A DNA stretch of 47,972 bases from positions 1 to 47,972 of the forward strand of contig SVOQ01000020.1 of the NCBI GenBank assembly GCA_015066345.1, given 5' to 3'. Below, piece by piece: positions 7,562-16,119 of the stretch. The first letter of the stretch is position 1. Each line of letters starts with the position of its first letter. Under the pieces are notes generated by a model. The model saw nothing but the letters and a program-made list of their open reading frames with translations. It was not told the DNA's origin and made no database searches. Source of the DNA: Oscillospiraceae bacterium (lineage in GTDB: Bacteria > Bacillota > Clostridia > Oscillospirales > Acutalibacteraceae). Both the position numbers and the translations under genes were made by a program.

Positions 7562-8590
7562 TTAAGCCTGTTCCGCGATATCAAGAATAAGTTTTTCGGT
7601 CTTTTCCCAACCAAGACAGGGGTCTGTAATTGATTTACCAAAGATGCCGTCACCTATTTTTTGTGTACCGTCTTCAAGGTAGCTTTCAATCATAATACCC
7701 TTAACGAGCTTTTTGATATCATCATTATGAGCACGGCTATAAAGAATATCTTTGGTAATACGAACCTGTTCAAGATATTTTTTACCTGAGTTAGCGTGGT
7801 TAGCATCAACTATACAAGCGGGATTTTTAAGACCTGTTTTTGCATAAGATTCGCTAAGGTTAAGTAAATCTTCATAGTGATAGTTAGAAATATTGTGTCC
7901 GTCACGGTCAACAAAACCACGCATAATTGCGTGAGCGTAAGGGTTACCCTCACTTTCAACTTCCCAACCTCTGTAAATGAAAGTGTGACTGCTCTGAGCG
8001 GCAGTAATGGCATTCATCATAACGGAAATATCACCACCCGTGGGGTTTTTCATACCTACGGGAGCAGAAATACCGCTTGAAACAAGGCGATGCTCCTGAT
8101 TTTCAACAGAACGAGCACCAATTGCAACGTATGAGAGCAAATCAGAAAGATAGCGGTAGTTTGCAGGATAAAGCATTTCATCCGCACAGGAAAAACCATA
8201 TTCCTTAAGAGCGCACATATGAAGCTCACGAATAGCAATAATACCGTGAAGCATATCGGGTTTCTCATTAGGATCGGGTTGATGAAGCATACCCTTATAA
8301 CCTGAACCTGTTGTTCTGGGTTTATTAGTGTAAATTCTGGGAACTATTACTACTCTGTCTTTAACTTTTTCACGCATTTCTGCGAGACGTGAAATATATT
8401 CAAGAACAGGTTCTTTTGAGTCTGCCGAACAAGGACCGATAATAAGTAAAAGTTTATCGGATTCACCTGTAAAAACTTTTCTTATCTCCTCATCATTTTT
8501 TGCTTTTTGCTCTGCCATCTGAAGGGTAAGAGGATATTGTTCCTTGATATCCATCGGAATGGGGAGTTTTCTTTTGAAATTCATTGCCAT
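7562..8590 (-). CDS. aroF: 3-deoxy-7-phosphoheptulonate (DAHP) synthase, class I
   Basis: It catalyses the first committed step, condensing phosphoenolpyruvate with erythrose 4-phosphate. It resembles the AroF/AroG/AroH type of about 350 residues. Visible signatures are LLLIIGPCSADS, PRIYTNKPRTTGSGYKG, GARSVENQEHR, PVGMKNPTGG and DANHANSGK. I use ATG 8590 (342 residues), which has GGAGAG eight bases upstream; ATG 8605 is in frame but has no good RBS. It is the last gene of the operon, immediately behind aroA. In this enzyme class one or more isozymes are feedback-inhibited by Phe, Tyr or Trp; which one applies here cannot be read from sequence alone. Confidence 0.95.
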   Translation of the reverse strand: MAMNFKRKLPIPMDIKEQYPLTLQMAEQKAKNDEEIRKVFTGESDKLLLIIGPCSADSKEPVLEYISRLAEMREKVKDRVVIVPRIYTNKPRTTGSGYKGMLHQPDPNEKPDMLHGIIAIRELHMCALKEYGFSCADEMLYPANYRYLSDLLSYVAIGARSVENQEHRLVSSGISAPVGMKNPTGGDISVMMNAITAAQSSHTFIYRGWEVESEGNPYAHAIMRGFVDRDGHNISNYHYEDLLNLSESYAKTGLKNPACIVDANHANSGKKYLEQVRITKDILYSRAHNDDIKKLVKGIMIESYLEDGTQKIGDGIFGKSITDPCLGWEKTEKLILDIAEQA

Positions 8591-8605
8591 ATTATATCTC
8601 TCCAT

Positions 8606-9811
8606 TTAAATAATTTTATATTGTATTCCGAGGTTTTTAATATCCTTAAAAAAGTCGGGATAACTCTTATTAACACACTGAGCATCTTTTAAAATGCCCC
8701 CTGTTACACTGCACAAAACCGCAAAAGACATTGCAATTCTGTGGTCATTGTGACAGTCAATTTCTTCTGTGGGTGTATGGGGAACAGTATCAGGAATAAT
8801 TATATAATCATCCCCTATTTCTATGGAAACACCGAATTTTTCCAACTCCTGTGCCATAGCCATTCCTCGGTCACTCTCTTTAATTTTCAAACGATTAGTG
8901 CCTTTAAGTTCAGCACCGTTTTTTAATACCGCACTCACTATAAGCACGGGCCCTAAATCAGGATATTGGGAAATATCAAGCTCGGGAGTTCCGTGGGAAA
9001 GTTTTTCGTAAAACTCTCTGTAAATTTTATCTCCCTGGTAACTTTCGGGATTAACGCCCTTTACTACCACATTACCATCCGCAAGATTAAATGCGTCAAG
9101 AAAGGCGGAATTTGACCAATCCCCTTCTGTTACAAGGTTACGGCATTTGTACTTCTGATTGCCCTTAATATAAAAGCCTTTATCGGTCTTCTCTACAATA
9201 ACTCCAAACTCTTTAAGTACGCCTATTGTTATATCAACGTAGGGTGCGCTTTCAAGTTGAGTTGTTAAAATAATTTCACTGTCGCCGTTAAGCAATGGTA
9301 ATGCAAACATCAAACCTGTAAAAAACTGACTGCTCACATCACCGGTTAGTTTAAACGCTCCGCTTTTAAGCTCACCACCCGTATAAAGAACGTTATCATT
9401 CAAAGATAGATAACAATCCATCTCCTGAAAAAGGTCTTTATACACGTTCTGGGGACGTTCCATAAGCCTTCCCCTGCCCGTAAACTCACAAGTCTCTGCG
9501 AAAAGCATACCAACGGGAATCATAAAACGCAAAGTGCTTCCGCTTTCATTACAATCAAAGGATTTACTGTTTTCTTTTTGTGACAAAGAAACACCCGTGA
9601 CTTTTGCAACGCCTTGGTTGATTTCTATTTTTGCACCAAGATTTTCGAGGCAGGATACAGTAGCTAAAACATCATCATTTGTACCGATATTTTCAATGAT
9701 ACTTGTCCCCTCAGCAAGGGCGGCACAAATCAATAATCTGTGGGCTACACTTTTGGAAGCCGGTGCATTTATTTCGCCTTTGGCTACCGAAGGTGTAATA
9801 CTTATATTCAT
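8606..9811 (-). CDS. aroA: 3-phosphoshikimate 1-carboxyvinyltransferase (EPSP synthase)
   Basis: It transfers enolpyruvyl from PEP to shikimate 3-phosphate (step 6). The 401 residues include APASKSVAHRLLICAALAEG (N-terminal substrate loop), SGSTLRFMIPV, GDVSSQFFTGLMFALP, IKESDRG and DCHNDHRIAMSFAV. The family loop LxxAGTAxRP is here written CNESGSTLRFMIPVG, with no GNAGTA-type motif, as in class II-like or divergent Firmicutes enzymes. The start ATG overlaps the aroQ stop by four bases, indicating translational coupling. Confidence 0.95.
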   Translation of the reverse strand: MNISITPSVAKGEINAPASKSVAHRLLICAALAEGTSIIENIGTNDDVLATVSCLENLGAKIEINQGVAKVTGVSLSQKENSKSFDCNESGSTLRFMIPVGMLFAETCEFTGRGRLMERPQNVYKDLFQEMDCYLSLNDNVLYTGGELKSGAFKLTGDVSSQFFTGLMFALPLLNGDSEIILTTQLESAPYVDITIGVLKEFGVIVEKTDKGFYIKGNQKYKCRNLVTEGDWSNSAFLDAFNLADGNVVVKGVNPESYQGDKIYREFYEKLSHGTPELDISQYPDLGPVLIVSAVLKNGAELKGTNRLKIKESDRGMAMAQELEKFGVSIEIGDDYIIIPDTVPHTPTEEIDCHNDHRIAMSFAVLCSVTGGILKDAQCVNKSYPDFFKDIKNLGIQYKII

Positions 9812-10242
9812 TTATTCACCTTCTCAATGAGTGCATCAATTGCCTCAAGATATCCGTCAGTACCTTTACCTGTTATGGTTTTAAAACAAGCCTGACGGAT
9901 ATAACTTATTTGTCGGAAATCCTCACGGGAGGAAACATCAGAAATATGTACTTCTACCGTTGGAATACCAACCGCTTTCAATGCGTCAAGAAGAGCAATG
10001 GAAGTGTGGGTATACGCACCGGGATTAATAACTATACCGTCAAAAACACCGTAGGCAAACTGAATATTATCTACTAAATCACCCTCGTGATTAGATTGAT
10101 AGCATTTAACCGCTACGCCTTTTGACTCGGCATAATCTTCTATTTTATTTATAAGAGTACCGTAGGTTTCCTTTCCGTAAATATCGGGCTCTCTTATTCC
10201 CAACATATTAAGGTTAGGTCCGTTAATCACAAGAATATTCAT
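9808..10242 (-). CDS. aroQ: 3-dehydroquinate dehydratase, type II
   Basis: It dehydrates 3-dehydroquinate to 3-dehydroshikimate (step 3). At 144 residues it has the normal size. Signatures are ILVINGPNLNMLGIREPDIYG (catalytic Tyr within), YQSNHEGDLVD, INPGAYTHTSIAL and VEVHISDVSSREDFR. The start at ATG 10242 is favoured by GAGGCGG upstream and by alignment with the conserved N-terminus; a longer in-frame start would add nine unrelated residues. It overlaps the end of the aroE-aroK gene by 20 bases. Confidence 0.96.
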   Translation of the reverse strand: MNILVINGPNLNMLGIREPDIYGKETYGTLINKIEDYAESKGVAVKCYQSNHEGDLVDNIQFAYGVFDGIVINPGAYTHTSIALLDALKAVGIPTVEVHISDVSSREDFRQISYIRQACFKTITGKGTDGYLEAIDALIEKVNK

Positions 10243-11473
10243 TGAATTCCGCCTCAATTCTTTTTGCAACCGTCTCTATTGTTCCGCTACCGTCAATTAC
10301 TGCATCGGCACATTCAAGATATAGTGAATAGCGCTCATTGTAGCGTTTACTCAATGCCTCGTTATCCCTTGACAGGGGTCTGTCATCTGTGGCAACAAGC
10401 ATTTCAAGAGGTCTGTCTATAAAATAGATTCTGCCGTTTTCTTTTAAGATATCCGTATTATCTTTATTAAGTATTGCACCGCCACCCGTTGCAATAATAT
10501 GATTATTCCTCGATGAAACGGCGAAAACTTCATTTTTTTCAATTTCCCTGAAACCTGCTTCCCCTACTTCGGAAAAAATTTCAGGGATAGATTTTTTTTT
10601 CGATTCAACAATTAAATCATCCGTATCCACAAATGTTTTTGAAAGTTTCTGGGACAGATAATTGCCCACGCTTGTTTTACCGCTACCGGGCATACCTACA
10701 AGTACAATATTCATTTTATCTTTGTAAAGATTTTTGAAAATTGTTTCGACTTTTTCGTTATCAACCGGTGTATCAATAAATTTTTCCACTGCGTAAGCCG
10801 CCTGTGAAACGAGCATATAAAGACCGCCCGAAGATACAATACCAAGTTTCTCTGCATCGCAAATAAGTTTTGATTTCAACGGATTATAAACCGCATCAAA
10901 AACGGCTTCAAGTGAACTGAATTTACTTAAATCCATCGCAGATTTACCAATATTCGGGAACATTCCGCAAGGAGTAGTATTAATTATAATTTCAAAATCA
11001 GTGTATTTTTCATACACATCTTCGTATGTAACATATCCGTCTTTAGCAGTACGCGAAACCTTGACAATTGCTTTTGCCCCCATAAATTCGGCAACCGCAA
11101 CCGCAGTATTGGATGTACCGCCACTACCCAACACAAGGACTTTTTTATCCTTAAGAGTTACATTCTTGCGTTCAATAAGGGCTTTTAATCCGTAAAAATC
11201 CGTGTTATAACCGTATAATTTACCGTCACGATTAACCACCGTATTAACCGCGTTTATACTCTTCGCTTCAGGTGATATTTCATCAAGAAAAGGTATAATC
11301 ACCTGTTTATAAGGAATCGTTACATTTATTGCTTTAAAATCCCTTTTATCAAAAAAACTTTTCAGATTTTCTCGCTCTATTTCAAGAATTTTATAATCAT
11401 AATCGGCAAGTTCATTGTGTATTTCCTTGGAAAAGCTATGTTTTAAATGCTCACCGATACAACCGTATTCCAT
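10223..11473 (-). CDS. aroE-aroK: fused shikimate dehydrogenase - shikimate kinase
   Basis: One 416-residue frame holds two enzymes. Residues 1 to about 250 are shikimate dehydrogenase: KHSFSKEIHN (shikimate site), INVTIPYKQ (catalytic Lys), YNTDFYG, LVLGSGGTSNTA (NADP-binding) and the C-terminal GLYMLVSQA. From residue 254 a kinase begins, as if at its own start (MNIVLVGMPGSGKTSVG, Walker A). It continues with FVDTDDLI, GFREIEKNE, ATGGGAIL and IDRPLEMLVATDDRPL. It therefore performs steps 4 and 5 in sequence and could hand on shikimate directly. A second initiation at the internal Met is possible but no strong RBS was seen. It follows aroC by three bases. Confidence 0.95.
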   Translation of the reverse strand: MEYGCIGEHLKHSFSKEIHNELADYDYKILEIERENLKSFFDKRDFKAINVTIPYKQVIIPFLDEISPEAKSINAVNTVVNRDGKLYGYNTDFYGLKALIERKNVTLKDKKVLVLGSGGTSNTAVAVAEFMGAKAIVKVSRTAKDGYVTYEDVYEKYTDFEIIINTTPCGMFPNIGKSAMDLSKFSSLEAVFDAVYNPLKSKLICDAEKLGIVSSGGLYMLVSQAAYAVEKFIDTPVDNEKVETIFKNLYKDKMNIVLVGMPGSGKTSVGNYLSQKLSKTFVDTDDLIVESKKKSIPEIFSEVGEAGFREIEKNEVFAVSSRNNHIIATGGGAILNKDNTDILKENGRIYFIDRPLEMLVATDDRPLSRDNEALSKRYNERYSLYLECADAVIDGSGTIETVAKRIEAEFNEYSCD

Positions 11474-11476
11474 TGT

Positions 11477-12565
11477 TTACACCAACCAATCGGTACCGAA
11501 TTTCTGAGAAAGCAAATCACAAAGAGCAATTGCCACAACGCTATCAACAACAACTCTCGCACGATGTACTATACAGGGGTCGTGTCGTCCCGTAACACTG
11601 AGTTTAACTTCCTCACCATTAATAAAATCAACTGTATTCTGTTCTTTTGAAATAGATGGTGTAGGCTTTACGGCACAACGGAAAACAAGTGGCATGCCGT
11701 TTGATATTCCGCCGTTAATACCACCGTTATTATTGGTTTTTGTTGTAATTACACCGTCATCAAGTTGAAAATGGTCATTCATTTGACTACCGTTCATATC
11801 CGAACAACCGAAACCTGCACCAAACTCAACACCCTTAATAGCGGGAATTGAGAAAAGACCGTGGGAAATAATGCTTTCAAGGGAATCAAACCAAGGCTCA
11901 CCGACTCCGGCAGGAACACCGGTAACGACAGTTTCGAGAATTCCTCCTACGCTATCCCCATCTTTAGCCGCATTTTCAATAGCGGTAATCATATTATCTT
12001 TCGCATCTTCATTTAAAACAGAAAACTGAGCGTTTGAAAGAAAATTTATATTGCTTTCGTAATCACTGAAATCATCATCAGTTATTCCTGCACATTTTTT
12101 AATATGAGTACCGATACAGATACCTTTATTTTTCAACAAATCAACGGCTATTGCACCTACGCCAACAAGTCCCGCAGTAATCCTACCGCTGAAATGTCCG
12201 CCACCGCGATAATCCTCGGCACCGTTATATTTAACGAAAGCCGTGTAATCTGCGTGACCGGGACGTGCTTTTCCGTAATTTTTAGAATAATCACCGGATT
12301 TTGTATTTTCGTTAGGAATAATAAGGCAAATAGGTGTGCCGGTTGTTTTGCCGTAAAACACACCGCTCACAAGATTAAACTTATCCTCCTCTTGTCTTGG
12401 TGTGGAAATCTTACCAAAAGGACGACGTAAATCAAGTTGATGAGCAATAAACGCTTCATTTACCTTAATTCCTGCAGGAAGTCCGTCAATAATAGCGCCA
12501 ATTGCCGTGCCGTGACTTTCCCCGAAAAGGGTCACACTTACATTGTTACCGAAAGTGTTCTTCAA
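11477..12565 (-). CDS. aroC: chorismate synthase
   Basis: It converts EPSP to chorismate (step 7) using reduced FMN. At 362 residues it has the usual length. The family signatures GESHGTAIGAIIDGLPAG near the N-terminus, RPGHADYTAFVKYN and YRGGGHFSGRITAG, and RHDPCIVHRARVV at the C-terminus are all present. It starts with TTG: the start overlaps the aroB stop (ATTGA), with GGAGGC nine bases upstream. This gives MKNTFGNNVSV, the expected N-terminus. Confidence 0.97.
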   Translation of the reverse strand: MKNTFGNNVSVTLFGESHGTAIGAIIDGLPAGIKVNEAFIAHQLDLRRPFGKISTPRQEEDKFNLVSGVFYGKTTGTPICLIIPNENTKSGDYSKNYGKARPGHADYTAFVKYNGAEDYRGGGHFSGRITAGLVGVGAIAVDLLKNKGICIGTHIKKCAGITDDDFSDYESNINFLSNAQFSVLNEDAKDNMITAIENAAKDGDSVGGILETVVTGVPAGVGEPWFDSLESIISHGLFSIPAIKGVEFGAGFGCSDMNGSQMNDHFQLDDGVITTKTNNNGGINGGISNGMPLVFRCAVKPTPSISKEQNTVDFINGEEVKLSVTGRHDPCIVHRARVVVDSVVAIALCDLLSQKFGTDWLV

Positions 12566-13575
12566 TTAATATACGCCTCCTTTATAATTTCATCAAATTC
12601 TGAAAATTCAACAAATCTGAAATTGAATTTACCTATATCACTTACCTCAACAGCATTCACTCCAACAGAATCCGCTTTCTTGTCGTGACGCAAAGCATTA
12701 GTAAGCTCTTCGGGAGTAATATTTATTGCATAAGGTAAAGAATACTTCTTTAAAACTTCAGCCAAACGTGTTCTAACATTATCCGAAGAAAAAGCCAACA
12801 TACCCAAAGCAACACATTCACCGTGTAACAAGTCACCTAAACCTGTTGCAGTTTCAATTGCGTGACCTACGGTATGACCAAAGTTAAGAACCCGTCTTAA
12901 ACCCTGTTCTTTTTCATCTTCTTCAACTACCGCTTTCTTAACAAGTAAAGATTTTTCAATTACTTTGTCAATTTCATCATACGCATTCTTATTCTCTATA
13001 AGTTCAAAAAGTGATGCGTCCGAGGTAGCACCCATTTTTATACTCTCTGCAAGGCCGTTATTAAACTGACGTGTTGAGAGAGTTTTCAGAACTTCAGGGT
13101 CAATTATAACCTTTGTAGGTTGGTAGAAAGCACCAACAATATTTTTATAACCACCGAAATCTATTGCGGTTTTACCGCCTATGGAAGAATCCACCTGAGA
13201 TAAAAGTGTGGTTGGAATATTATAAAAAGTAATTCCTCTCATATAGGTGGATGCGGCAAATCCCGACATATCACCCACAACTCCCCCACCGACTGCTACA
13301 ACGCAATCGTAACGTGAAAAATCATTTTCACACATAATTTCAAGTAATTCTTTATAAGTCTCAAAATTCTTACTTTTTTCACCCTGGGGTATCGTCTTAA
13401 TTACAGAGTTTTCGAACTGCTTTAAAACAATTTGCGAATACTCCGGAGGAACACCATCGTCAGTTACAATAAGTGCATGTTTTTTTACATCGCAGATTTC
13501 ACTTAATTTATTTAATGCTCCGCGTTCAAGAACTATGTCGTAACTGCCTGTTGAAGTTTTTACTGTTATAATCAT
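12562..13575 (-). CDS. aroB: 3-dehydroquinate synthase
   Basis: It cyclises DAHP to 3-dehydroquinate (step 2), using NAD and a divalent metal. Signatures are VAVGGGVVGDMSGFAASTYMRGI (NAD site), PTTLLSQVDSSIGGKTAID, and the metal ligands in LNFGHTVGHAIE and LLHGECVALGM. At 337 residues it is slightly short but complete. The RBS is weak (CAGG). It lies 29 bases behind pheA and overlaps aroC by four bases. Confidence 0.97.
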   Translation of the reverse strand: MIITVKTSTGSYDIVLERGALNKLSEICDVKKHALIVTDDGVPPEYSQIVLKQFENSVIKTIPQGEKSKNFETYKELLEIMCENDFSRYDCVVAVGGGVVGDMSGFAASTYMRGITFYNIPTTLLSQVDSSIGGKTAIDFGGYKNIVGAFYQPTKVIIDPEVLKTLSTRQFNNGLAESIKMGATSDASLFELIENKNAYDEIDKVIEKSLLVKKAVVEEDEKEQGLRRVLNFGHTVGHAIETATGLGDLLHGECVALGMLAFSSDNVRTRLAEVLKKYSLPYAINITPEELTNALRHDKKADSVGVNAVEVSDIGKFNFRFVEFSEFDEIIKEAYIN

Positions 13576-13604: not shown

Positions 13605-14705
13605 TTATATTGATTGCTCTTTAGGGTAACGACCCACAAGTCGCACATTAGTGCAGACTTCGGAAAGTTTTTCAATCATTGTTTTTTCTGCCTCGGGTGT
13701 AAGATGACCTTCACCCTCAAGGAAGAAATAATAGTTCCAGATAACATCTTTTGAAGGTCTGCTCTTGAGTGCTTTAAGGTTATAGCCACACTCACCGAAA
13801 ACAGAAACAGCCTTACCCAATGAACCCGCTTCATCCCGAACCGTAAAAAGAACTATAAAGTTATTAAGGTCCGGTGTATTATCGCGGGCTATTCTTGAAA
13901 ACACCGCAAAACGGGTTGTGTTAGCACTGTCTTTATTAATTTTACGGTCAATAAGTTTCAGACCATATTCATTACCCGCTTCAAGGCTACATATAACACC
14001 GAGGGTATCGTCCTGCTTTTGTGCAACAACCGAGGCGGCAACAGCAGTATTAACCATCTCTTCAGTAGCATATCCTTTTTCGTCTATATACTCCGCACAC
14101 TGACCGAGAGCCTGAGGATGACTGACAACTTTTTTTATAGTCTTGCTTTCTGCAGACTGAGTACCGAAAAGATGTTGCTCTATACCCATATCATAGATAC
14201 CGTTAATATGTAGGCTACCGAAGTAGGTTAAATCCATAACCCTCGCCACATCACCTTCATAACTGTTTTCAATGGGTAATACCGCCACATCGCACTCACC
14301 TATTTCAACCGCTTTATAAGCAGATTTGAAATCAGGATATGATACGGGTACCGAGTCAGGGAAAATTCTTTTAACCGCTATTTCGGCAAAAGCTCCCTTT
14401 ACACCCGAAAATGCAACGCGGGTACCATCAATAATCTTATGTTGATAGTCCTTCGAAAGGTTCATTGTATTCTTAAGAAAACTAACGTAATACGAACGGA
14501 TTTCATCGTTTTCAATAAGTGAACTGTTAGTTTCTATAAGACGGTTTTCTCTGACCATATCTTCAATGGGTATGCCATTGACTTTTTTATACTCAGCAAC
14601 ATCAACCGCCGCTTTCATTCGTTCTTCGAAGAGTTTTGCAATCTCTTTATCAACGCGACTTATAGTTTCTCGTGCCTCGCGGAATTTTTTATCGTAATCA
14701 GTCAT
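13605..14705 (-). CDS. pheA: bifunctional chorismate mutase / prephenate dehydratase
   Basis: Three domains are visible in 366 residues. An AroQ-type chorismate mutase helix bundle occupies about 1-90 (ISRVDKEIAKLFEERMKAA). A prephenate dehydratase domain occupies about 95-275, with FSGVKGAFAEIA, LPIENSYEGDV, VVSHPQALGQC and the catalytic NTTRFAVF. A C-terminal ACT domain occupies about 283-360, with AGSLGKAVSVFGECGYNL and LKSRPSK; this is where Phe binds for feedback inhibition in the family. Together with the upstream aminotransferase it leads from chorismate to phenylalanine. It overlaps that gene by eight bases. Confidence 0.96.
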   Translation of the reverse strand: MTDYDKKFREARETISRVDKEIAKLFEERMKAAVDVAEYKKVNGIPIEDMVRENRLIETNSSLIENDEIRSYYVSFLKNTMNLSKDYQHKIIDGTRVAFSGVKGAFAEIAVKRIFPDSVPVSYPDFKSAYKAVEIGECDVAVLPIENSYEGDVARVMDLTYFGSLHINGIYDMGIEQHLFGTQSAESKTIKKVVSHPQALGQCAEYIDEKGYATEEMVNTAVAASVVAQKQDDTLGVICSLEAGNEYGLKLIDRKINKDSANTTRFAVFSRIARDNTPDLNNFIVLFTVRDEAGSLGKAVSVFGECGYNLKALKSRPSKDVIWNYYFFLEGEGHLTPEAEKTMIEKLSEVCTNVRLVGRYPKEQSI

Positions 14706-15888
14706 TTTTATAATCCTCGTAAAGTTCCTTAAACGCGTTAAGTGAACGTTTAATTAAATCAGTATCTACACAATAAGCAAGTCTTACAAAACCGGGACAA
14801 CCAAAGTCATCACTCGGCACAAGAAGAAGTTCAAATTTCTTTGCTCTTTCGTAGAATTTATAGGCATCTTCTTCAAGTGATTTCACAAACATATAGAAAG
14901 CACCGTCAGGTTTAATAACTGTATATCCTATATCAGTAAGTCCCTCGTAAAGAATCTTTCTGTTTTCTTCATAAACCGAAACATCCGCCGTATTATTGAG
15001 ACACTCAGAAATTGTGTACTGCATAAGGCTCGGTGCACAAACATAACCCAAAGCACGTCCCGCACCGCAAACCGCCGCAAAAACATCTGAACTATCTTTC
15101 ATTGTGGGAGAAACAAATATATAACCTATTCTTTCACCGGGTAATGAAAGTGCCTTTGAATATGAATAACATACAAAAGAATTATCATAATATGCGGGAA
15201 TGTAAGCAACCTTTTCACCTGTGAAAACCAATTCTCTGTACGGTTCATCAGAAATAAGGAAAATCTCTTTACCGTATTCTTTTTGTTTTTCATTAAGGAG
15301 TGCGGCTAATTTAATAACGTCTTTTTCAGGAACAATAACGCCCGAAGGATTATTAGGGGAATTGATAATAACAGCTTTTGTGTTAGGTGTAATACTCTTT
15401 TCCAATAAATCAAAATCTATTTGTAAATCATCGTTTTTGCAACTTACGGGAACGAACTTAGCACCTGACTGTTCAACGAAAACCCTGTACTCAGGGAAAA
15501 ACGGTGCAAAAGCAATGACTTCGTCGCCTTCCTCTGCAATAGCATTCAAAGCAATTGTAAGAGAAGCCGCCGCACCACAGGTCATGTAAATAAGACCGGG
15601 GGTTGCTTCTACCTGAAACTTAGTCTTTATATTTTCAGCAATTGCAGTTCTCACCTTCAAATCACCGGGGCCGGAAGTATAACCGTGAAGCACCTCCGCG
15701 GGAGTTTCGGCAATAAGCCTGTTCATAACATCCGTAACCTTTTGAGGAGCAGGTACGCTGGGGTTACCCAAACTGAAATCAAAAACATTCTCAACACCTA
15801 TTTCGGCTTTACGGACTCTACCGTATTCGAATATTTCACGTATAACTGAACTTTTTTTGCCTAATTCCAACATTTTCTGAGATAACAT
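14698..15888 (-). CDS. class I/II pyridoxal-phosphate aminotransferase
   Basis: This 396-residue enzyme has the fold-type I layout: FSLGNPSVPAP (N-terminal substrate loop), YMTCGAAASLTIALNAI (phosphate cup), INSPNNPSG, LISDEPYREL and the Schiff-base lysine K245 in YSYSKALSLPGERIGY. It resembles aspartate/aromatic aminotransferases annotated as pyridoxal phosphate-dependent aminotransferase. As first structural gene of the aromatic operon, directly before pheA, it most likely converts phenylpyruvate (and hydroxyphenylpyruvate or prephenate) to the amino acid. That specificity is inferred from context. AAGGAG precedes the ATG, just behind the attenuator. Confidence 0.88.
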   Translation of the reverse strand: MLSQKMLELGKKSSVIREIFEYGRVRKAEIGVENVFDFSLGNPSVPAPQKVTDVMNRLIAETPAEVLHGYTSGPGDLKVRTAIAENIKTKFQVEATPGLIYMTCGAAASLTIALNAIAEEGDEVIAFAPFFPEYRVFVEQSGAKFVPVSCKNDDLQIDFDLLEKSITPNTKAVIINSPNNPSGVIVPEKDVIKLAALLNEKQKEYGKEIFLISDEPYRELVFTGEKVAYIPAYYDNSFVCYSYSKALSLPGERIGYIFVSPTMKDSSDVFAAVCGAGRALGYVCAPSLMQYTISECLNNTADVSVYEENRKILYEGLTDIGYTVIKPDGAFYMFVKSLEEDAYKFYERAKKFELLLVPSDDFGCPGFVRLAYCVDTDLIKRSLNAFKELYEDYKND

Positions 15889-15913: not shown

Positions 15914-15968
15914 AAAAAATCCGCAAACCGATATACTTTTTAAGCATAGCAGAATGCGGACTGGCTAT
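15914..15968 (-). promoter_or_regulatory. Phe/Tyr attenuator: terminator and antiterminator
   Basis: Terminator: TCCGCA (15960-15955) pairs with TGCGGA (15925-15920) around an inner hairpin TATGCTT/AAGTATA (7 pairs, one G-U), followed by six T (15919-15914). Antiterminator: ATAGCCAG (15968-15961) pairs with CTGCTAT (15952-15946) with one bulged C. That uses bases needed by the terminator, so the two folds exclude each other. Stalling of a ribosome in the Phe/Tyr-rich leader just upstream would leave the antiterminator free to form. The leader's Shine-Dalgarno region CGAGG (16072-16068) also complements CCTCG at 16002-15998. Confidence 0.75.
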
Positions 15969-15984
15969 ATACAATTCGTTGCAA

Positions 15985-16059
15985 TTACTTGCATTTACGA
16001 GGAGTACACAGACAATCCATAGTATAGTAATAAAATCGTTTATTAAAGCTATAAAACAT
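15985..16059 (-). CDS. Phe/Tyr-rich leader peptide of the aromatic operon (24 aa)
   Basis: The short frame starts at ATG 16059, six bases after GAGGTG, and begins MFYSFNKRFYYYTMD. Phe occurs at 2, 5 and 9 and Tyr at 3, 10, 11 and 12, so 7 of the first 12 residues are Phe or Tyr, including three Tyr in a row. It ends at TAA 15985, about 17 bases before the antiterminator. The peptide has no function of its own in such systems; its translation senses charged tRNA-Phe and tRNA-Tyr. It lies between a consensus promoter and the terminator hairpin, the layout of pheA/trp-type attenuation. Confidence 0.8.
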   Translation of the reverse strand: MFYSFNKRFYYYTMDCLCTPRKCK

Positions 16060-16090
16060 CTGTTTCACCTCGCAACTAAAAGATAGGGGT

Positions 16091-16119
16091 ATTTTACTCC
16101 TCTAATTTTTATTTGTCAA
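16091..16119 (-). promoter_or_regulatory. promoter of the aromatic operon
   Basis: A consensus -35 TTGACA (16119-16114), a spacer of exactly 17 bases and a -10 TAAAAT (16096-16091). The start site is predicted about 20 bases before the leader-peptide Shine-Dalgarno. Confidence 0.8.

Follow-up and report, generated by a model that had tools for sequence, protein, structure and literature searches.

A predicted Phe/Tyr leader-peptide attenuator upstream of a shikimate-pheA operon in an uncultured gut Clostridia bacterium

Described leaders and the present locus

Proteobacterial pheA, trp and his leader attenuators combine control codons in a leader ORF with three RNA pairings, termed 1:2, 2:3 and 3:4. 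We analyzed a leader in the DNA of an uncultured gut Clostridia bacterium; the whole stretch studied, here called the window, comprises 47,972 nucleotides and is an entire contig of a 2.33-Mb draft genome (98% complete). Like the proteobacterial attenuators, this leader has control codons in a leader ORF, three pairings, and an operon predicted to make the amino acid that is sensed. Unlike them, it comes from Clostridia, mixes Phe and Tyr codons in one leader, precedes a single operon extending from DAHP synthase to prephenate dehydratase, uses the Shine-Dalgarno (SD)/start-codon segment itself as region 1, and has no Rfam match.

Several described leaders are comparable. The available text of one study, which analyzed five genomes including Clostridium novyi, reports two uORF candidates that are tied to shikimate genes and contain F and Y (Stav 2019; PMC6429828). 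The window leader resembles them in having a uORF tied to shikimate genes and in its F and Y residues, but that text gives no mechanism, spacing or co-variation and the likeness is one of description only; the candidates may be relatives of the window leader. The uORFC-13-1 motif, described in 2021 before aroF in Acholeplasma and environmental sequences, shares with it, in the portion of the report available, a promoter, an RBS, a uORF with Phe codon(s), a terminator and a DAHP synthase target; unlike the window leader, it is presented with one further paired substructure and with only Phe named (PMC8632094). The accessible parts of other sources describe a Leu-rich attenuator peptide of the Staphylococcus aureus ilv genes with experimental support (PMC5794164) and predicted His leader attenuators in Firmicutes (PMC9413887, PMC2965389). 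These are alike, by description, in being leader-peptide attenuators of Firmicutes, and differ in their amino acids and operons. The original prediction had set the Firmicutes, with their T-box or TRAP control of aromatic genes, against the proteobacteria with their peptide leaders; T-boxes are indeed present in the genome, but leader-peptide attenuation is less foreign to Firmicutes than that contrast implied, as far as the available text of two of these sources goes (PMC5794164, PMC9413887).

The Lactococcus Leu/phe leader corresponds, according to the accessible text, to RF01743 (PMC2864571). No Rfam family matched the window leader at its gathering threshold, including RF01743 and the T-box (RF00230), and five sub-threshold matches were to unrelated sRNA or miRNA families. 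T-box leaders sense tRNA charging, as is predicted for the window leader; unlike them, the window leader contains no T-box and is predicted to sense through the ribosome and not by direct tRNA binding. A description of the window leader or its mechanism was not found in the literature covered, a body that leaves out most subscription papers. Within that coverage, several features are new: the lineage, the Phe/Tyr mixture together with the pairings, how far the operon extends, the 1:2 fold, and the contrast to another family's T-box on the same pathway. Our verdict is that the leader is real and conserved and very probably an attenuator of the classical type.

The leader, its operon and its relatives

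The leader and the operon comprise the following features, all on the minus strand.

16091..16119 (-): promoter, with the -35 box TTGACA at 16119-16114, a 17-nt spacer and the -10 box TAAAAT at 16096-16091
16048..16076 (-): region 1, the SD/start-codon segment, which pairs with region 2 (anti-antiterminator) and thereby also hides the leader SD
16066..16071 (-): SD sequence GAGGTG of the leader ORF
15985..16059 (-): predicted leader ORF of 24 codons, MFYSFNKRFYYYTMDCLCTPRKCK, with ATG at 16059 and TAA at 15987-15985; one of 72 distinct peptides
15994..16023 (-): region 2, the 3' half of the uORF; the 5' arm of the antiterminator is 16018-16004
15980..15993 (-): small hairpin TGCAA-GTAA-TTGCA enclosed by the antiterminator, with the stop codon in its loop
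15958..15972 (-): region 3, the 3' arm of the antiterminator, whose AGTCC (15962-15958) is also part of the terminator
15914..15962 (-): intrinsic terminator (3:4), AGTCCGCA ... TGCGGATT, ending in T6
14698..15888 (-): gene 1, PLP aminotransferase (NF005305, PRK06836), above the NCBIfam curated cut-off
13605..14705 (-): gene 2, chorismate mutase-prephenate dehydratase pheA; the dehydratase match is below the curated cut-off, that of the chorismate mutase domain above it
12562..13575 (-): gene 3, 3-dehydroquinate synthase aroB, above cut-off
11477..12565 (-): gene 4, chorismate synthase aroC, above cut-off
10223..11473 (-): gene 5, fused shikimate dehydrogenase-shikimate kinase aroE-aroK, with matches to both halves that fall below the respective cut-offs
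9808..10269 (-): gene 6, type II 3-dehydroquinate dehydratase aroQ, above cut-off, start uncertain
8606..9811 (-): gene 7, EPSP synthase aroA, 278.6 bits against a cut-off of 287.25
7562..8605 (-): gene 8, DAHP synthase (aroFGH type), the sole match of the query in the genome
7204..7227 (-): terminator-like hairpin with a T tail 3' of gene 8, the probable end of the operon

Every element listed in the original prediction is present, namely the TTGACA-17-TAAAAT promoter, the RBS, the 24-codon frame and the terminator. The promoter has 11 of 12 consensus bases and is one of two sites that good across the 14 kb scanned, where promoter-like sites as a class are not enriched (30 against 39.6 expected). 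A site of the form TTGA[CT][AT], 15-19 nt, TAnnnT lies upstream of 38 of 39 leaders by script and, by eye, upstream of the remaining one (L061). Between promoter and first gene, the window and its relatives have a short SD-preceded leader ORF whose translation is predicted, and 25 nt separate the window terminator from the ATG of the first gene. By eye, several relatives have stop-codon hairpins similar to that of the window (TTGCAA-GTAA-TTGCAA), in some cases with altered stems.

The operon ORFs overlap their neighbours or lie at most 29 nt apart. Gene 8 is 72% identical to the DAHP synthase of a relative, which passes the aroFGH cut-off. Terminator-like sites as a class, to which the hairpin behind gene 8 belongs, are not clearly enriched (13 found, 10.5 expected). 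From its gene content, the predicted eight-gene operon runs from DAHP synthase to prephenate dehydratase and adds the aminotransferase. The operon is larger than the original prediction gave it, the DAHP synthase being the eighth gene.

Minimum-energy folding, proposed earlier as a check, gave -51 kcal/mol for the 178-nt leader RNA (z -5.0), and none of 200 shuffles was as stable. SD-preceded F/Y-rich short ORFs number three in the window, the leader included, against 2.35 expected from 20 first-order Markov samples. Because an F/Y-rich ORF alone is within chance in such AT-rich DNA, evidence from the single sequence is insufficient; comparative evidence, and not ORF composition, is what lifts the leader above chance.

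We searched for pheA in 60 genomes including the window's own, 49 of which matched, and examined 30 loci, setting aside by eye the chance ORFs listed there. A leader with a Phe/Tyr uORF stands at 19 of the 30, those of the window, 14 genomes of the same genus, and G054, G050, G058 and G031. Among 21 same-genus genomes, 14 have a close pheA (62-91% identical), two a weak pheA match and five none. Homologous operons of relatives without both the Phe/Tyr codons and the paired hairpins had been named at the outset as a finding that would speak against the attenuator; within the genus, all 14 genomes with a close pheA carry the Phe/Tyr-codon leader.

Two covariance models extended the search. Model R1 was built from 13 leaders, with L017 and L019 excluded as their region 3 was misaligned by MAFFT, and model R2 was a wider one of 35 leaders. 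The covariance search in the order that had been suggested with the original prediction matched, with R1 and strict filters, 21 of 394 genomes at E<=0.01, own genome included. Under strict filters R2 matched six of 391 genomes of the class. Three of the six had not been found before and belong outside the order; at these three loci the downstream gene is DAHP synthase in two and pheA in one. R2 found no leader outside the class among 398 genomes of the phylum, its two matches being same-order genomes already known, and this absence is weak evidence because strict filters were used. Within the DNA seen at the other 11 of the 30 pheA loci R2 found no leader, and neither a DNA search nor R1 found a second copy in the window's own genome.

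A pattern scan of named genomes, which required three TWY codons 5-14 nt 5' of region 2, returned 52 records, 51 of them with an F/Y uORF; two MAGs gave two records each. By label, 51 of the 52 are Clostridia, Clostridiales, Oscillospiraceae, Lachnospiraceae or Ruminiclostridium, and many come from ruminant gut. One Ignavibacteriae record lacks a uORF and is probably a chance match. The first gene in the 51 records, assigned by regular expression, is DAHP synthase in 24, an aminotransferase in 13, chorismate mutase-pheA in eight and another gene in three, the contig ending first in three. For the 39 leaders a script gave aminotransferase in 20, pheA in five, DAHP synthase in five and no class in nine; by eye, those nine are four aminotransferases, four pheA and one unclear. 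One genome (G009; L061 / L007) has nearly 300 nt between terminator and aminotransferase gene, with leader and terminator apparently intact. At L097 and L099 an AMP-ligase-like gene (by eye) lies 387-422 nt past the leader, in place of an aromatic gene.

Pairings, control codons and ribosome position

The three pairings are an anti-antiterminator (1:2), an antiterminator (2:3) and the terminator (3:4). In the window the 2:3 duplex joins GGAUUG-U-CUGUGUAC to GUAUAUAG-C-CAGUCC, and a one-base mismatch occurs at the same place in many relatives; L017 is a clear example, where ACGGaCUUUCUG pairs with CAGAAAGcCCGU. The antiterminator and the intrinsic terminator are mutually exclusive by computation, and the computed pairings and their co-variation support what had been proposed for them. 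It had further been proposed that the leader SD can pair with CCTCG near the end of the leader. This is correct, and the contact belongs to the 1:2 pairing, which had been left open and can now be described as the SD/start-codon segment paired with the 3' half of the uORF.

We counted co-variation of 2:3 in alignment A5, which holds 35 of the 39 leaders (L016, L017, L018 and L019, with E 0.04-0.28, were left out). In these, 84.8% of cells are paired and the covariation score is 0.337 against 0.198 when shuffled (reached in 0 of 500 shuffles) and at most 0.093 when slid, values that lean towards 2:3 because A5 was fitted to that structure. Both sides are changed in 10 of 16 pairs, which seven of 500 shuffles reach; the 27 further pair types are only weakly above shuffles (32 of 500). 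Some leaders have a 2:3 pairing no better than shuffles, as in L018 (reached by 26 of 200) and L045 (12 of 200). For 1:2, 35 of 39 leaders beat 95% of 200 mononucleotide shuffles, and p is 0.065-0.15 in the other four.

Swapping arms among 17 leaders less than 72% identical gave a mean of -15.0 kcal/mol for 1:2, against -21.0 for cognate arms, and of -16.7 against -24.1 kcal/mol for 2:3. The cognate advantage of both pairings exceeds that of all 10,000 permutations in this divergent set, with the cognate arm being the single best partner in only six (1:2) and seven (2:3) of the 17.

The full leader set comprises 93 records (some genomes occur twice), which reduce to 75 distinct nucleotide sequences and 72 distinct peptides; examples from relatives are MKNKFYFYFYYFKKGCPSSVISED, MLQKFYYYYYYFNKDCLFSSKEQHA and MYINRFYYYSYTDCLCAKSA. 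F makes up 18.4% and Y 15.9% of the residues in the 72 peptides, and W 0.1% (one peptide). An F/Y run of at least three is found in all 72, a set chosen partly by F/Y codons; the window and the 14 relatives identified via pheA alone have such a run too.

The aromatic codons have a defined place. At codons -6 to -2 before region 2, F or Y occurs in 60, 71, 73, 70 and 53 of 73 uORFs (two of the 75 were dropped, the script finding no region 2), and at codons -1, 0 and +1 in 2, 0 and 0 of 73, a sharp drop that is partly built in because region 2 was sought only after the last aromatic pair and because the pattern and the R1/R2 models contained aromatic codons. We also placed region 2 where region 3 formed its best duplex with any part of the uORF, ignoring the aromatic run. 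With this placement, F or Y stands at -6 to -3 in 24, 29, 28 and 31 of 34 leaders, at -2 in 25 of 36, at -1 in 12 of 37, at 0 in 8 of 39 and at +1 in 2 of 39, counts that retain L003, L008, L040, L041 and L044, where the duplex starts near the start codon. The 14 pheA-found relatives gave 7, 10, 9 and 10 of 12 at -6 to -3, 7 of 14 at -2, 6 of 14 at -1, 2 of 14 at 0 and 0 of 14 at +1.

The leading edge of a ribosome is taken to lie 15-16 nt from the first base of the P site. With the A site at codon -4, this edge roughly reaches region 2. In 24 of 25 cases among distinct leaders, F-[FY] is preceded by the Arg codon CGA (16036-16038, minus strand, in the window), whereas seven genes of the operon use CGA for six of their 92 Arg codons. 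The preference may reflect a slow codon timing ribosome and polymerase, an RNA constraint or descent. L045 and L116 have one base fewer before region 2 than L042, and their conserved nucleotides read as RAARLM; this frameshift may be an error of sequencing, or it may indicate that conservation acts on the RNA and not on the peptide.

For each ribosome position we folded, at equilibrium, the RNA that the ribosome leaves free. In the window, the terminator forms with a probability of 0.78-0.80 when the A site is at codons 2-3, 0.47-0.55 for codons 4-10 and 0.81 for codon 11. The value is 0.92-0.93 once the ribosome has reached codon 12 and up to the stop, and 0.92 on ribosome-free RNA; because codons 4-10 are equally low, aromatic or not, the fold alone fails to single out the aromatic codons. 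Among the 39 leaders the minimum at an aromatic codon is below 0.5 in 26, and 13 never fall below 0.5; at the stop the probability exceeds 0.8 in 38, and without a ribosome it exceeds 0.5 in 36. Readthrough would need co-transcriptional kinetics, because the antiterminator never wins outright at equilibrium in these 13 leaders. Its forming first during transcription is plausible there because regions 2 and 3 emerge before region 4.

Proposed mechanism, alternatives and T-boxes in the lineage

With its parts and their conservation, the co-variation of 1:2 and 2:3, the spacing and the fold predicted per ribosome position, the leader very probably belongs to the ribosome-mediated transcription attenuators of the trp/phe/his-leader kind and would sense charged tRNA-Phe and tRNA-Tyr to control the eight-gene operon. 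We infer translation of the leader, stalling, readthrough and a response to both amino acids, as follows. Transcription would start about 7 nt past the -10 box, and a ribosome would load on the leader ORF. When Phe-tRNA or Tyr-tRNA is scarce, it would wait on the RFYYY codons with its leading edge not yet at region 2 or touching no more than the first bases; region 2 would stay free, 2:3 would form and keep the five lowest base pairs of the terminator from closing, and the operon would be read through. When both tRNAs are plentiful, the ribosome would reach the stop codon and cover region 2, so that 3:4 forms and transcription ends. If no ribosome is loaded, region 1, with the SD and start codon, would pair with region 2, shutting the leader SD and letting the terminator form.

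Sensing of both Phe and Tyr is probable. An attenuator as described that responds in practice to one amino acid, for example Phe, is somewhat unlikely; pheA and the aminotransferase would suit the Phe branch, the sole prephenate dehydrogenase (tyrA) match in the genome lies on another contig (C19), and the first codon of the critical RFYY block is Phe, but both F and Y occur in 72 of 72 peptides, the two swap at critical positions, and the 75 distinct uORFs hold 264 Tyr codons beside 304 Phe codons. Ribosome stalling could also be imagined as nascent-peptide arrest of the TnaC/SecM kind at the C-terminal motif D/G-C-L/P, which recurs in most peptides. That motif coincides exactly with region 2, however, and in L017, L048 and L052 it is DFL, matched by AGAAAG in region 3; because these changes are matched, pairing probably explains the motif. 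L045, moreover, reads the same nucleotides in another frame, and we regard arrest as very improbable.

In two further readings the ORF does no sensing. The conserved start and SD of the ORF, its conserved aromatic run and spacing, and the lack of an Rfam match at gathering make a directly tRNA- or metabolite-binding RNA (a T-box variant or riboswitch, with the ORF incidental) more improbable still, even though T-boxes serve other genes in this genome and another family has one ahead of the pathway genes. The other reading, in which a small gene under no regulation or an ORF of chance origin happens to lie between a promoter and a terminator of the usual sort, draws on the 2.35 F/Y-rich short ORFs expected per window by chance, yet position, promoter, peptide core, target genes and two exclusive co-varying helices all recur, and this is the least probable account.

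A T-box in place of the attenuator had likewise been named at the outset as a finding against it; there is no T-box match in the leader, and one does precede the corresponding genes outside the family. The window's own genome has eight T-box matches, five above cut-off, which precede pheS, a leuA-like gene, trpB, thrS, alaS, ileS and two similar ligase-like genes, those of alaS, ileS and one ligase-like gene being below cut-off. Three of these T-boxes (L054, L056 and L059) lie within 3.3 kb (C42:103360-106670), one before the leuA-like gene and two before similar genes that, by eye, begin as HTH-cupin and go on as ligase-like; for the L056 gene, a search with its first 330 residues gave no NCBIfam match at 1e-30. 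In a genome of another family of the order (G038), an Rfam T-box at L069, 304-568 (+), lies directly before the shikimate-pheA genes, whose order by eye is DAHP synthase-aroB-aroC-pheA-aroA-aroEK. Its specifier is, by eye, UUC (Phe), with the same local context as in the own genome's pheS T-box. Because this other family has a T-box on the same genes, control of the pathway differs between lineages. G036, whose pheA locus is leaderless, has a T-box before trpB (gene name and specifier by eye).

If the attenuator reading holds, the cell senses tRNA-Phe by a T-box for pheS and by the ribosome for biosynthesis. More tentatively, as a possibility that we favour less than its contrary, the leaders could form a Clostridial attenuator class that evolved apart from the proteobacterial one, acts as a Phe/Tyr OR-gate on the common aromatic pathway, silences its own RBS by 1:2, places a slow CGA ahead of its control codons and, on the same pathway in sister families, alternates with a T-box for Phe. 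The leader suggests that trp/phe-type attenuation would run a complete amino-acid pathway in a T-box-bearing lineage, and that one leader would count two amino acids. With a T-box on the same pathway in a related family, the replacement of one tRNA-sensing switch by another becomes directly testable, and the leader pattern provides an annotation rule for many uncultured gut Clostridia.
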